Source of the DNA: Lachnospiraceae bacterium UBA3845
GTDB taxonomy: Bacteria; Bacillota; Clostridia; Lachnospirales; Lachnospiraceae
Assembly (NCBI GenBank): GCA_002392705.1
Contig: DGHP01000155.1
Span: 15,350 to 25,916 of the forward strand
Reading direction: 5' to 3'
DNA length: 10,567 nucleotides
In this document: piece after piece, positions 5,651 to 10,444 of the stretch
Layout of the letters: every line of letters starts with the position of its first letter
Position numbering within the stretch: position 1 is the first letter of the stretch
The notes under the pieces: model-generated
What the model saw: the letters and a program-made list of their open reading frames with translations, nothing else
The model's database searches: none
Told to the model about the DNA's origin: nothing
Translations under genes and position numbers: made by a program

Positions 5651-7957
5651 ATGAAATTATATGACGGCGGTGTATATCTGGTAAACGGGAATCAGATCAT
5701 TCCGGACGGACCGGACGCATCCGCGATCGCGGAACGGGAGACAGGCCTTTCGCTCTCCAGGCAGGAAGCCAGGAAGCAGACGATGGCCTGGGGGATTCTT
5801 CATGCCCACAATCGTTCGGCGGACGAGGAAAAACTGCAGATTTGCTTTGACAAGCTGACCAGCCACGACATCACATATGTAGGCATCATTCAGACGGCGC
5901 GCGCTTCCGGGCTTGAGAAATTCCCCATCCCCTATGTGCTGACCAACTGCCATAATTCCCTGTGCGCGGTAGGAGGCACGATCAACGAGGATGACCACAT
6001 GTTCGGCCTGTCCGCCGCGAAGAAGTACGGCGGAATTTATGTTCCGCCTCACCAGGCGGTCATCCATCAGTTTGCCCGCGAGATGCTGGCGGAGTGCGGA
6101 GGCATGATCCTGGGATCCGATTCGCACACCCGCTACGGCGCCCTCGGCACCATGGCTGTGGGAGAAGGCGGCGGAGAACTGGTCAAGCAGCTTCTCAGAC
6201 AGACCTATGACATCGACATGCCCGGCGTGATCGGCATCTTCCTGACCGGTGAGCCTGCGAAGGGTGTAGGCCCCCAGGACGTCGCCCTGGCGATTATCGG
6301 AGAGGTTTTCAGCAGAGGCTTTGTCAAGAATAAAGTCATGGAATTCGTAGGCCCCGGCATCTCGGCCCTGAGCGCGGATTTCCGCATCGGCGTGGACGTG
6401 ATGACGACGGAGACGACCTGCCTGACTTCCATCTGGAGAACCGATGAGAAGATCCGGGAATTCTATGAGATCCACGGAAGAGAAGAGGCTTACAGAGAGC
6501 TGAATCCGGGAAGGACCGCCTATTACGACGGAATGATTGAGATCGATCTGAGCTCCATCCGTCCCATGATCGCCATGCCTTTCCACCCGAGCAATGTCTA
6601 TGCCATCGAAGATGTGCAGAAGAACCTTGCGGACGTGCTCAGCGAGGTGGAGAAGAGAGCAGAGGTTTCCTTCGGCGGCCGGATCGAATACAGCCTGCAG
6701 AATAAGGTCCGTGACGGAAGGCTCTATGTGGACCAGGGTATTATCGCCGGCTGCGCGGGCGGCGGATTTGAAAATATCTGTGATGCCGCCGATATCCTGA
6801 AGGGACATTATATCGGGGATGACGCGTTTACCCTGAGCGTCTATCCTGCCTCCATGCCGGTCTATATGGAACTGGTGAAAAACGGGAAATTCGCGGACCT
6901 GATCGAGTCGGGCGCAGTGATCAAGACCGCCTTCTGCGGTCCCTGCTTCGGCGCGGGCGATACGCCTGCCAACAACGCTTTCTCGATCCGGCACTCGACC
7001 AGGAACTTCCCCAACCGTGAGGGATCCAAGGTCCAGAACGGACAGATCGCGTCGGTTGCCCTGATGGACGCCCGCTCGATCGCCGCCACGGCTGCAAATA
7101 AGGGCTTCCTGACTGCCGCCGACCAGCTGGAATTCAGCCTTACGCAGCCGCGCTATTTCTTTGACAGCAGGATATACGAAAACAGGGTATTTGATTCGAA
7201 GGGACAGGCGGATCCCTCCGCAGAGCTGGTATTCGGCCCGAATATCAAGGACTGGCCGGCCATGAGCGCCCTTCCGGAGAATCTGCTGCTGAAGCTGGTG
7301 TCGGAGATCCACGATCCCGTGACGACCACGGATGAACTGATTCCCTCCGGCGAGACGAGTTCCTTCCGCTCCAATCCTCTGGGCCTTGCCGAATATACCC
7401 TCTCACGCAGGGATCCGGCCTATGTCGGCCGCGCGAAGGAGGTGCAGAAGGCACAGAAGGCAATCGAGGCCGGGAAAGATCCGGTCAGCGCGCTGGAAGA
7501 GCTCGCTCCGGTTCTTGCCCTTATTGACGAGAAGCTTCCGGGCTGGCTGGAGAAGAAAAATGATCCCGCCCTCTTCGGCGTAGGCTCAACGATCTTCGCT
7601 GTAAAACCGGGAGACGGGTCCGCCAGGGAACAGGCCGCCTCCTGCCAGAAGGTGCTGGGAGGCTGGTCCAACATCGCCTTCCAGTACGCGACGAAGCGCT
7701 ACCGCTCCAACCTCATCAACTGGGGCATGCTGCCTCTTCTGATCGAGGAAGGAGACCTGCCCTTCACCAATGGCGACTGGATCCTGCTTCCTGATATCCG
7801 CGCCGCCGTGCAGGAGAAGCGGGAGAAGATCATGGGCTTCGCGGTCAGGGAAAATGAGCTTAAGCAGTTCTGGATGAGCCTGGGCGAGCTGACCGATCAC
7901 GAGCGCCGGATCATTCTGGACGGCTGCCTGATCAATTTCAACCGGGCAAAGAACTGA
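5651..7957 (+). CDS. Aconitase-superfamily hydratase, YbhJ-like
   Basis: A 768-residue [4Fe-4S] hydro-lyase of the aconitase superfamily, resembling E. coli YbhJ, whose substrate is not established. The catalytic core shows [21 protein letters not shown] (from about 154), with Asp157 and His159 of the DSH motif. Cluster ligands are Cys368 (AGCAGGG) and the CGPC pair Cys429/Cys432, in the same order as in aconitase. [13 protein letters not shown] carries two arginines (451, 456) in the position of aconitase substrate-binding arginines. The swivel domain has [10 protein letters not shown], where aconitase has GSSREHAA. The catalytic Ser657 and Arg659 are kept, but the second serine is Ala658, hinting at an altered substrate. 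The start has GGAG eight bases upstream. It is alone in its transcription unit, with no citrate synthase or isocitrate dehydrogenase nearby. That argues against a plain TCA role but does not exclude it. Confidence 0.88.
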
Positions 7958-8028: not shown

Positions 8029-8174
8029 GTATCGGCATTCAAAAGTGCCGTGGGGATCCGGAAAAATGGTATGCGCAGAATTTGTTTAAATGTATATATT
8101 GAATAAAATGTTCACACAATATATTAATTTATCGGGAAGCTTTAAGAAAAAATAAAAAATATCGAAAAATAGTG

Positions 8175-8203
8175 TTGACAAATAGAACCGGCACTGCTAT
8201 TAT
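8175..8203 (+). promoter_or_regulatory. Very strong consensus promoter with upstream A/T tracts (UP-like)
   Basis: TTGACA (8175-8180), exactly 17 bp, and TATTAT (8198-8203), with TGC just before the -10 (extended -10). The preceding bases include AAAAAATAAAAAATATCGAA, which resembles the UP elements of rRNA promoters. An 8-bp inverted repeat (ATATATTG at 8094-8101, CAATATAT at 8117-8124) lies further upstream. This is the best promoter in the window. Start is predicted near 8210. Confidence 0.88.
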
Positions 8204-8226
8204 ACAGGCATCAGAAAACACAGACG

Positions 8227-8284
8227 TTTCAAAACAGACTTTCACAGATAGTTCCGTAACGGAGTTGAAAGAATCGTTTTGAAA
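8227..8284 (+). other. Bipartite hairpin at the 5' end of the long transcript
   Basis: TTTCAAAAC (8227-8235) pairs with GTTTTGAAA (8276-8284). Then CTTTCA (8239-8244) pairs with TGAAAG (8266-8271), and TCCG (8254-8256 region) with CGGA (8260-8263) around TAA. The arms line up in register with small internal loops, giving about 19 pairs in one 58-nt element that begins roughly 17 nt after the predicted start. Such alignment of three stems is unlikely by chance in unstructured sequence. Confidence 0.65.
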
Positions 8285-8296
8285 GTGTTTTCAAAA
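8277..8296 (+). promoter_or_regulatory. Perfect 8-bp hairpin / cre-like operator downstream of the strong promoter
   Basis: TTTTGAAA-GTGT-TTTCAAAA is a perfect dyad. Its core TGAAAGTGTTTTCA (8280-8293) matches the CcpA cre consensus TGWAANCGNTNWCA at all but one position (T for the central C). It sits about 70 bases after the predicted start, where cre sites can block elongation. The left arm is shared with the preceding 5' hairpin, so in RNA only one of the two can form. Operator and RNA switch are alternative readings. Confidence 0.45.
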
Positions 8297-8382
8297 AATA
8301 ACGGCGACAGACAATAGGGTATACGCAGTTTCAAAGCAGCCGGCCGTCTGATTCATGTCCTGCGCGGACTGGTGAAGTACCA

Positions 8383-8496
8383 TTCAGATCCTGTAGAATT
8401 ATTTCAGATCAGAAAGATTCCTTCAGATCCTGAAGAATCATTTCAGACCGGAAAGATTTGATCAGATTCTGGAGACTGTACTCAGAGAGAAAGGCG
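8383..8496 (+). repeat. 39-nt tandem repeat, two good copies and one degenerate
   Basis: TTCAGATCCTGWAGAATYATT begins at 8383 and 8422, and a weaker copy (ATCAGATTCTGGAGA) begins at 8461, an exact 39-nt period. Each full copy also ends TTTCAGAYCRGAAAGATT. Copy 2 contains CTTCAG-ATC-CTGAAG, a perfect 6-bp hairpin, and copy 1 a similar imperfect one. One frame stays open through both copies (...SDPVELFQIRKIP...) but ends in a TGA at copy 2 and has no ATG. I therefore prefer an RNA repeat. Confidence 0.75.
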
Positions 8497-8619
8497 TCCA
8501 GGAAAGTGCAGATAGACTTATGACAGATCTGCAGCTTTAAATCATGAAAATACCGCAGCGTCCGGTGAACTGAATTCTCCGCATATCGTCTGAAGCTTAG
8601 AGAAAGGAGTCTTGGTCCG

Positions 8620-8715
8620 ATGGACAGGTTAGAAGCACCATTCGAAAACGTTCAATATAACAGTGGCAAGGTGGAAGGTCCCTGCGGAAGAGACTTCTAT
8701 CATCGCTCATTCTGA
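8620..8715 (+). CDS. Possible 31-residue small protein within the long transcript
   Basis: ATG at 8620 is preceded by AGAAAGGAG (GGAG ends 11 bases before), the only convincing Shine-Dalgarno site in the 1.1-kb region. The ORF encodes 31 residues beginning MDRLEAPFENVQYNSGK and ending CGRDFYHRSF, then TGA. It has no transmembrane segment or signal peptide and a single cysteine, and I recognise no family. It may be a real small protein, a leader peptide tuning the RNA, or chance. A longer overlapping frame starting GTG at about 8663 lacks a ribosome site and is not preferred. Confidence 0.4.
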   Translation: MDRLEAPFENVQYNSGKVEGPCGRDFYHRSF

Positions 8716-8850
8716 AAGAATTCGACAGATAAGTTCGAGAATCGGAGAGAAGAGGCAGATAAGCGACAGAAGCGCCCGACACCTGGTTATATTGAGCAGG
8801 TTCATTGCCACAGAATCAGAATATGAATGCATTTGTAACAGTTAAAAACA

Positions 8851-8919
8851 TTTTCATTGATGACATACAGTTGTTCATTGAAGAATTTCGTTGATGACGA
8901 ATACATTTGTTCATGAAAG
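8851..8919 (+). repeat. Imperfect 34-36-nt duplication (TTGATGAC ... ATACA ... TTGTTCAT)
   Basis: TTGATGAC occurs at 8857 and 8891, ATACA at 8865 and 8901, and TTGTTCAT at 8871 and 8907, so two imperfect units lie side by side. A weaker relative, ATGCATTTGTAAC, sits at 8827. This is the second repeat block of the long transcript. Confidence 0.55.
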
Positions 8920-9278
8920 AGTGAGGATTTCAGAATCCGTATCTGACGAGAAAGGATACGAAGAGCGATTTCCAATTCATATAAGAATAGTTATCTGAAA
9001 CACTTAAAATTATTATAAAGTTTGACATAGAAGGGTCCCGGCAAGACCCGGCAGCGCAGAAGAAGAACCGGTAAAGAAGAAGCTTGATCGAAGAAGGATG
9101 AAGAAACCGGAAAAGCGCTGGATATGTTCCGTCAGAAGAAGAAACAGCAGGCTGGCGGATGCCGGTAATTTTAAGAATGATGTTTTTAAAGAAAACATCT
9201 TAAGATACAGACGCAGGGCAAAAGATCTCCGATTGTTTGATTAAAATATAATAACAACTGAATAAAAACGAAATATTA

Positions 9279-9312
9279 CAGGCCGGTGAAGCAAATCACC
9301 GGCCTGTTTTTT
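9279..9312 (+). terminator. Strong intrinsic terminator of the long transcript
   Basis: CAGGCCGGTG pairs perfectly with CACCGGCCTG (10 bp) around AAGCAAAT, then six T (9307-9312). On the minus strand the stem is followed by GTAATATTTCGTTTTTATTC, so it may also serve as a weaker terminator for the converging pdxY transcript. Confidence 0.93.
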
Positions 9313-9519: not shown

Positions 9520-10359
9520 TTACAGATTCCGCACTCTGTCCACCAGCAGGGGAAGGGTGTGTTCAAAGTCCACGCCGTAACGGTCTTCCCGGCCGAAGGT
9601 CCGGTAAGTGTAATCGACGGTTTCTTTCGTATAATCGCAGGCGAGGCGGAAGGCCTCTGCCACAGAAAGCCCGCGCATGATCGCTCCCACGACGGTGGAG
9701 GCGAAGATATCGCCGGTGCCGTGGTAGCTGGTCGGGACATGGTCTGTATAATACTCAAAGATGTCGCCTGTTTTTCCGTTCAGGCCCATGACGCCGATTT
9801 TTCCCGGTGTGAAGGAGACGCCTGTCAGGACGGCGTATTCCGGACCGAGGGCGGAGAGTGCATGGAGCATGTCCATGATATAGGCGCGGTCATACTCTGT
9901 TTTGTAGGGGAGGCCGGTCATGAAGCTTGCTTCCGTCAGATTGGGAAGAATGATGTCGGCTTTGGCGCAGAGCTTTGTATTCTCTTTCGCGTAAGCTTCA
10001 TCAAAAGCCGGATATAATTTTCCGTTGTCCGCCATGACCGGGTCAACTACGACAACGGTATCCTCCGAGCGGAAGCGTTCGAAGAAGTCGGATACGAGAC
10101 TGATCTGCTCGAAGGAACCCAGGTAGCCTGTATAGATGGCGTCAAAATGGAACTTTTCCTTCTCCCAGTGCTCCGCGATCGGCAGGAACTGATCGGTCAG
10201 ATCCTTGCAGGTGAAGTTTTTGAACATGGTATGGGTGGACAGAACCGCTGTCGGAAGAATCGCGGTTTCCACGCCCATGGCGGAAATGATGGGCAGCGCC
10301 ACGGTCAGCGAGCATTTTCCGATGCAGGAGATATCCTGGATTGTTGCAATTCGTTTCAT
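9520..10359 (-). CDS. pdxY: Pyridoxal/pyridoxamine kinase
   Basis: Salvage kinase of the ribokinase superfamily that phosphorylates pyridoxal or pyridoxamine with ATP, feeding pyridoxal 5'-phosphate; cytosolic. The 279-residue protein opens MKRIATIQDISCIGKCSLT, typical of PdxY/PdxK. ILPTAVLSTHT (34-44) lies in the substrate pocket. VVDPVMADNGKLYP (104-117) is the metal and nucleotide loop, and PNLTEA (139-144) follows. HGTGDIFAS (213-221) carries the anion-hole GTGD, with Asp217 the likely catalytic base. Length fits the family (about 280-290). The start was chosen at 10359 because GGAGG lies six bases upstream. The ATG at 10422 would add 21 residues with no family match and no good ribosome site. 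ThiD-like hydroxymethylpyrimidine kinase is a related possibility, but the opening and spacing favour PdxY. It converges with the long RNA and appears monocistronic. Confidence 0.92.
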   Translation of the reverse strand: MKRIATIQDISCIGKCSLTVALPIISAMGVETAILPTAVLSTHTMFKNFTCKDLTDQFLPIAEHWEKEKFHFDAIYTGYLGSFEQISLVSDFFERFRSEDTVVVVDPVMADNGKLYPAFDEAYAKENTKLCAKADIILPNLTEASFMTGLPYKTEYDRAYIMDMLHALSALGPEYAVLTGVSFTPGKIGVMGLNGKTGDIFEYYTDHVPTSYHGTGDIFASTVVGAIMRGLSVAEAFRLACDYTKETVDYTYRTFGREDRYGVDFEHTLPLLVDRVRNL

Positions 10360-10406
10360 GATGAACCTCCATTCCCTCCGCGGACAGGCTGTATCTGAAA
10401 TACGCG

Positions 10407-10444
10407 CCTGCTTCTGCCGCATGGTACGCTGAGGCGGAAGCAGG
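10407..10444. repeat. 12-bp inverted repeat in the pdxY 5' region
   Basis: CCTGCTTCTGCC (10407-10418) pairs with GGCGGAAGCAGG (10433-10444) around a 14-base loop, with one T-G wobble on the plus strand. On the minus strand, which would be the pdxY leader, that pair is an A-C mismatch. The stem is therefore slightly better as plus-strand RNA. No T run follows on either side. It lies about 50 bases before the pdxY ATG. Confidence 0.6.

Follow-up and report, generated by a model that had tools for sequence, protein, structure and literature searches.

The window, i.e. the whole 10,567-nt stretch of DNA that was analysed, belongs to an assembly of 2.6 Mb (84% complete) for which the host habitat is given as rumen/pig gut. 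Within it, an aconitase-family gene (5651-7957, + strand) and a pdxY-type kinase gene (9520-10422, - strand) flank a region that, from the comparisons described below, almost certainly holds a real and conserved gene for a structured RNA. Pfam assigns the kinase to the phosphomethylpyrimidine kinases; the pdxY label was taken from the preliminary description of this DNA. The features of the region are as follows.

8175..8203, + strand: sigma-70-type promoter TTGACA-17-TATTAT with TG before the -10 element (promoter scan and family comparison)
8211..8313, + strand: hairpin domain at the 5' end of the predicted transcript, in which 8214-8292 is predicted to fold into a single long imperfect stem
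8383..8499, + strand: three 39-nt direct repeats, in an extra 5' domain (repeat scan)
8603..8609, + strand: Shine-Dalgarno sequence AAAGGAG, conserved in the family
8620..8715, + strand: mini-ORF MDRLEAPFENVQYNSGKVEGPCGRDFYHRSF plus stop, 31 codons, with start and frame conserved
8651..8661, + strand: helix a, 5' strand, in mini-ORF codons (covariation)
8680..8686, + strand: helix b, 5' strand, in mini-ORF codons (complementarity against controls)
8740..8747, + strand: helix c, 5' strand (pair changes, shuffles)
8786..8796, + strand: helix a, 3' strand (covariation)
8938..8960, + strand: hairpin h, its loop TGACGAGAAAG conserved (in Porcincola the stem has three versions, the arms of which change in step)
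9179..9199, + strand: 3' hairpin GATGTTTT/AAAACATC (arms co-vary between Porcincola groups, judged by eye)
9212..9218, + strand: helix b, 3' strand CGCAGGG (complementarity against controls)
9227..9234, + strand: helix c, 3' strand CTCCGATT (pair changes, shuffles)
9278..9312, + strand: intrinsic terminator, a perfect 12-bp stem (9278-9289/9296-9307) followed by T5

The preliminary description had proposed a near-consensus promoter with a TG element, and this was borne out: the site at 8175-8203 matches the consensus at 11 of 12 bases and is the best of 12 promoter-like sites. The pattern TTGACA-(16-18)-TATTAT is present a single time, whereas 200 shuffled sequences averaged 0.01 (three of them contained one). 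A TTGACA promoter was present in all 15 genus members, and in the family as a whole a promoter matching at least 10 of 12 bases lay within 350 nt 5' of the mini-ORF in 76/83 members, compared with 12/83 on the opposite strand; three of the 86 members were dropped from this count, the remainder having enough upstream DNA. The terminator scan alone was weak, giving 12 sites in the window where 9.7 were expected, and the stem at 9278-9289/9296-9307 was the longest perfect one among them. The proposed hairpin and T6 tract are there, with a stem that is actually 12 bp long and a T5 tract that becomes T6 if the last T of the stem is counted. We infer that the RNA is transcribed.

Two further claims, that no ORF exceeds about 60 codons and that the composition is shifted towards A and purines, also held. 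The longest ORFs between promoter and terminator have 61 codons (- strand) and 60 codons (+ strand), which is in itself a weak sign as 22.5% of 200 mononucleotide shuffles equalled it; A makes up 35% and purines 58% of the RNA compared with 24% and 53% of the remainder of the window. The minimum free energy of the predicted transcript was 7 sd under the mean of 15 dinucleotide shuffles, and the predicted transcripts of three relatives gave fold z values of -2.6 to -3.8 (40 shuffles each). For the 5' hairpin domain z was -3.5 in the window and -4.7 in a homologue of 86% identity (locus L002, genome G010). Two blocks of repeats had been reported. One exists, the three 39-nt copies, for which no counterpart was found in the corresponding stretch of the G010 homologue; otherwise the RNA contains only one 13-nt pair.

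Homologues were sought by several routes. Searched at the DNA level, 145 relatives yielded a single full-length homologue, that in G010, and conserved islands in seven further genus members; a second query brought the number of genus genomes with the RNA to 15 of 19. Early DNA matches in other genera, at query positions 82-159, resembled A-rich noise; the RNA adjoins such a match at three loci (L018, L012 and L007), and other loci showed none. A strict-pattern search of 299 family genomes gave two matches, only in the genus of the source genome, but covariance models showed a wider range. The first of these models, R1, was built from 12 genus sequences and found the RNA in additional genera; the second, R2, was built from 30 sequences and used with a cut-off of E ≤ 0.01. 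The search for syntenic relatives that the preliminary description had suggested was thus rewarded, the RNA being found, and confirmed by covariance model, in 15 of 19 Porcincola genomes, the source genome and Porcincola intestinalis among them. Four gave no match, including G009, which is 98% complete.

With R2 the RNA was detected in 85/387 sampled Lachnospiraceae genomes and 74/334 genera. A class-wide sample gave 4/341 genomes, one of them outside the Lachnospiraceae and weak (E 0.005), and an order-wide sample gave 3/146, all within the Lachnospiraceae. The RNA is usually single-copy; two matches were seen in G154 and in G185, those of the latter at contig ends. The set of 86 members used below excludes 13 weak or contig-end rows of the family search, G003, which is nearly identical to G005 at the RNA, and G573, the locus of which was unmatched at the cut-off of the set. 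From estimated start to terminator the RNA measures 549-598 nt in nine of 11 genus members and about 1.1 kb in the source genome and G010, where there are an extra 5' domain and longer spacers; across the 43 members in which promoter, helix c and terminator were all located the estimated length is 310-1098 nt.

The core of the structure consists of three long-range helices, which were first spotted by eye and tested afterwards. Their strands follow one another in the order a-b-c-a'-b'-c', so that each helix crosses both others. In 12 genus sequences all 132 cells of helix a were paired, with double changes at two pairs, although when only the five distinct versions were kept 14 of 1000 shuffles paired equally well. 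In 30 family sequences 96.3% of cells were paired and double changes occurred at 5 of 11 pairs; none of 500 shuffles equalled these sequences in the share of paired cells, the number of double-change cells or the covariation score, and all slid versions of the helix were far lower. The covarying pairs for which the preliminary description had recommended a test are thus present across relatives, and the failure of the stems to be conserved, which it had named as a ground for abandoning its reading, did not arise.

The partners of helices b and c were located through a complementarity search and their evidence lies in the controls and not in the raw pairing. Helix b is invariant within Porcincola and variable across the family. 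Immediately 5' of c', a member's own strand met at least 6 of its 7 Watson-Crick partners in 44/44 cases, compared with 58% for the strands of other members and 19% for shuffled ones; for 7/7 partners the values were 57%, 15% and 2%. The outer pair of helix c takes four standard pair types among five distinct Porcincola versions, and among 44 members its three outer positions form pairs in 41, 36 and 27, whereas of 2000 shuffles 6, 0 and 43 did as well; members being related, such counts are not independent. The helix-c motif is missing in 28/86 members, and of the 58 that have it, to which the search for terminators was confined, 14 yielded no c' with terminator. The three crossing helices could be alternative or intermolecular rather than simultaneous.

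Local elements were also recognised. Hairpin h has the stems CGTATC/GATACG, CGTTCC/GGAACG and CGTCCC/GGG-ACG within Porcincola (judged by eye), and taken alone its fold is hardly more stable than those of shuffles (z -1.2). The sequence GACGAGAAA was found near 51/86 members, 5' of the start codon in 34 and 3' of it in 18, a single member being counted on both sides. In Porcincola this loop (8944-8954) stands 3' of the core, while in many other genera it stands 5' of the Shine-Dalgarno sequence (L065, L069, L070 and L072 are among the loci that have it 5' of the start codon), as if the module had moved. A second loop motif resembling TGTGTRAAGAA follows a' in 44/86 members, at a distance of 24-40 nt in 43.

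The claim that this is none of the standard RNA families was upheld by Rfam 15. A cmscan of the window and 24 loci gave seven matches, all below their gathering scores and two of them in the window; the best by E-value were to microRNA models (0.0017 and 0.008). A match to Trp_leader at 1912-2033 on the - strand of the window (24.9 bits against a gathering score of 41) is probably due to chance. 6S RNA and tmRNA were considered as identities and rejected: a separate 6S RNA and a separate tmRNA scored above cut-off in 6/6 genomes searched, and no tmRNA match fell in the window. Collections of phages and plasmids gave no match with one member as query, and the open-licence literature contained no description of this RNA among the matches listed. 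Judged by Rfam 15 and that literature, the family is apparently undescribed.

The large RNAs ROOL, GOLLD and OLE, and the raiA motif, belong to the Rfam library. Like the first three, the present RNA is hundreds of nucleotides long, with a complex, covarying and pseudoknotted structure and a role that is unknown or partly known; unlike them, it has no Rfam match above cut-off in the window and 24 loci. According to PMC12286853 ROOL can reach the abundance of 16S rRNA, all three RNAs form oligomers, and ROOL occurs in phages and prophages, in contrast to the lack of matches to the present RNA, for one query, in the phage and plasmid collections. The present RNA keeps a start codon and a frame within its core; the passages of PMC12286853 that were consulted mention nothing of the kind for ROOL, GOLLD or OLE. 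From Lactobacillus salivarius comes a description of a long and abundant RNA that measures 520 nt (PMC5643018). The raiA motif RNA (ModT) is, according to PMC11706538, a structured RNA conserved in Bacillota; both RNAs are structured, but the present one falls below every Rfam cut-off. What marks a large structured RNA, a long independent unit with covarying helices, appears to be present here, in the form of predicted promoters and terminators and of covariation.

The statement that the transcript has almost no coding capacity proved right in that there is no long ORF, but it overlooked the Shine-Dalgarno-led ORF at 8620-8715, which is conserved in relatives. A G-rich Shine-Dalgarno sequence precedes it in 85/86 members (AGGAGG in 58), and in the 86-member alignment (A7) the start column contains TTG in 42, ATG in 38, GTG in 5 and AAG in 1, i.e. 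NTG in 85/86. Model R2 includes the Shine-Dalgarno sequence and start, so the members found with it are biased towards having them; R1 includes neither, and the first 18 members from outside the genus (L063-L080), which were found with R1, have NTG in 18/18. The distance from the start to the Gln-Tyr codons (QY) in helix a is 24, 27, 30, 33 or 36 nt in 80/85 and 23 or 26 nt in the other five. On a tree (a single FastTree topology from a short alignment), 14 of 19 inferred changes in this length were multiples of three (p 0.0004 against 1/3), as against 3/17 in the segment from Q to b and 22/65 in that from b to a' (Fisher p 0.001 and 0.003). Over the stretch that begins at the start codon and ends seven codons beyond Q, 76/86 members have frame 0 open, compared with 28 for frame 1 and 12 for frame 2. 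As far as can be judged from these sequences, the mini-ORF is probably translated.

The peptide presents a different picture. Among the 76 ORF-bearing members Q and Y are each shared by 74, G by 71 and A by 56. The protein-like conservation that the common QY..G had led us to expect found no support in the codon positions, at which 98, 88 and 98 changes were counted (positions 1, 2 and 3) in 34 non-overlapping pairs and 17, 16 and 17 inside the genus. Synonymous changes accounted for 34/190 codon differences in frame 0, 31/171 in frame 1 and 19/180 in frame 2. By both measures no protein-level selection on the mini-ORF peptide was detected. The Q-Y codons coincide with helix a, and six mini-ORF peptides had no NCBIfam match at E ≤ 1. 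An ORF open through QY is lacking in 10/86 members, and in nine of these the start codon is kept (eight with ORFs of 2-4 codons and one that reads on out of frame); the RNA is still present, and to judge by these members translation through helix a is not universal.

The end of the ORF also varies, some members stopping right after QYxxGxA and others continuing through helix b. Very short ORFs of 15-18 codons occur in 17/86 members, many ending straight after QYESGxA; the short-ORF loci L077, L066 and L138 also lack the helix-c motif and may form a distinct subtype. In G154, with its two RNA copies (L067, C12; L125, C7), one mini-ORF is ATG GGA TAG and the other is open but out of frame with respect to the QY codons.

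Taken together, most members examined carry a predicted promoter of their own, a terminator after helix c, crossing helices and a Shine-Dalgarno-led, frame-conserved mini-ORF. The preliminary description had suggested a long structured or dual-function RNA; the structured half stands, while for the dual-function half the frame is conserved but the peptide is without sign of protein-level selection. RNAIII, SgrS and SR1 are dual-function RNAs, with coding and regulatory roles, and tmRNA is a pseudoknotted RNA with an internal short ORF. The present RNA resembles the last in its pseudoknots and internal ORF and differs from it in having a Shine-Dalgarno-led start. With RNAIII, SgrS, SR1 and VcdRP, the last of which encodes 29 residues (PMC8672173), it shares an RNA gene that also bears a short ORF, apparently translatable and conserved in its start and spacing; what sets it apart is that two long-range helices each draw one of their strands from the ORF, and that conservation is seen in the frame and not in the residues.

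The explanation that we consider probable, if by no means certain, is an independent structured RNA that folds in a manner tied to translation of the mini-ORF it carries. Since mini-ORF codons make up the 5' strands of both a and b, a ribosome translating the ORF has to unwind these strands, and the simplest reading of a frame conserved without its peptide is that translation times the closing of the core. A translation-gated fold of this kind is plausible but falls a little short of probable. In such a fold, a ribosome elongating or terminating on the mini-ORF would keep the 5' strands of a and b open; were initiation or elongation to slow, a, b and c would close and the 3' domain would be locked. 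In short-ORF members a ribosome at the early stop would occupy the space between a and b, a placement that rests on the size of the ribosome footprint. In this way the RNA would signal translation, or respond to it, and would work in trans either as a folded RNA or as an RNP. The closed RNA could act as an RNP, as a trans regulator or, like ROOL, GOLLD and OLE (PMC12286853), as an oligomer, and if it is oligomeric the crossing helices could be partly intermolecular. More tentatively, the family may represent a new class of large bacterial RNA that has the ribosome as a component of its folding mechanism; in such a class the mini-ORF would be kept for being translated and not for its product, its codons would double as strands of the interlocking helices, and translation status would set whether the RNA closes into a pseudoknotted or an oligomeric form.

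If instead the peptide of 15-36 residues were the product, the remainder of the RNA would be a structured 3' UTR controlling translation or stability, and the molecule a small-protein mRNA. The conserved Shine-Dalgarno sequence, start codon and frame would fit, as would the shared Q, Y, G and A. This is nevertheless unlikely: there is no excess of changes at the third position, synonymous changes are not commoner than in frame 1, the shared Q-Y codons overlap helix a, the RNA persists in the nine members that keep the start without an ORF through QY, and the six peptides searched have no NCBIfam relatives.

We consider it equally improbable that the RNA is purely non-coding, with the Shine-Dalgarno-like sequence and NTG serving to bind the ribosome or a protein and the open frame being incidental. 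Their retention in members with ORFs of 2-4 codons, and the equal variation at the three codon positions, would be as expected on that reading, but the preference for multiples of three between start and QY, which is not shared by the two segments downstream, the excess of open frames 0 over frames 1 and 2, and the alternation of the start codon between ATG, TTG and GTG all speak against it.

To our knowledge few classes of bacterial RNA of this size and complexity are known. A family present in 85/387 sampled genomes of the Lachnospiraceae, a major gut family, and without an Rfam match above cut-off would add one. A conserved frame without a conserved peptide also raises the question of whether translation itself can be the conserved function of an ORF in a structured RNA; the contrast between frame and peptide makes this question testable, and Porcincola intestinalis, which has a named strain, is among the carriers.

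Transcription attenuators that code for a peptide combine a mini-ORF, competing helices and a terminator. All of these have likely counterparts here, and 27/80 downstream proteins belong to one TPR-like family (named from sequence), so the RNA was also considered as a cis-acting leader that would regulate the next gene through a leader peptide and an attenuator. This reading is very improbable. The present RNA differs from attenuators in having no fixed downstream gene: the genes that follow vary by clade and lie on either strand, and in the window, where the neighbour is on the opposite strand, there is no same-strand gene directly 3' to be regulated. Moreover, at TPR loci with a mapped terminator (n=20) a promoter-like site followed the terminator in 20/20, compared with 3/20 on the opposite strand and 48/400 shuffles; with a stricter cut-off the numbers were 5, 0 and 9. 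These sites imply that the RNA is not simply the leader of the TPR genes.

A decayed protein gene, to which the long ORF-poor stretch and some purine-rich, lysine-codon-like patches might point, is all but excluded by the syntenic stretches of 15 genomes in the genus, including four stretches that are incomplete, where the intact long ORF that the preliminary description had named as grounds for rejecting an RNA is absent (the longest sense-strand ORFs have 30-64 codons), and by the covariation of the stems.

On the 5' side the neighbourhood is more constant. An aconitase gene precedes the RNA in 13/14 genus members examined, whereas the 3' genes vary (pdxY-type, or trkA-type, a label assigned from reading the protein sequence). 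Over all loci, 18/57 upstream proteins are aconitases, 13 of them in Porcincola and five at loci of other genera (L063, L073, L076, L077 and L078). Aconitases can bind RNA, and a link between the aconitase gene and the RNA is conceivable.
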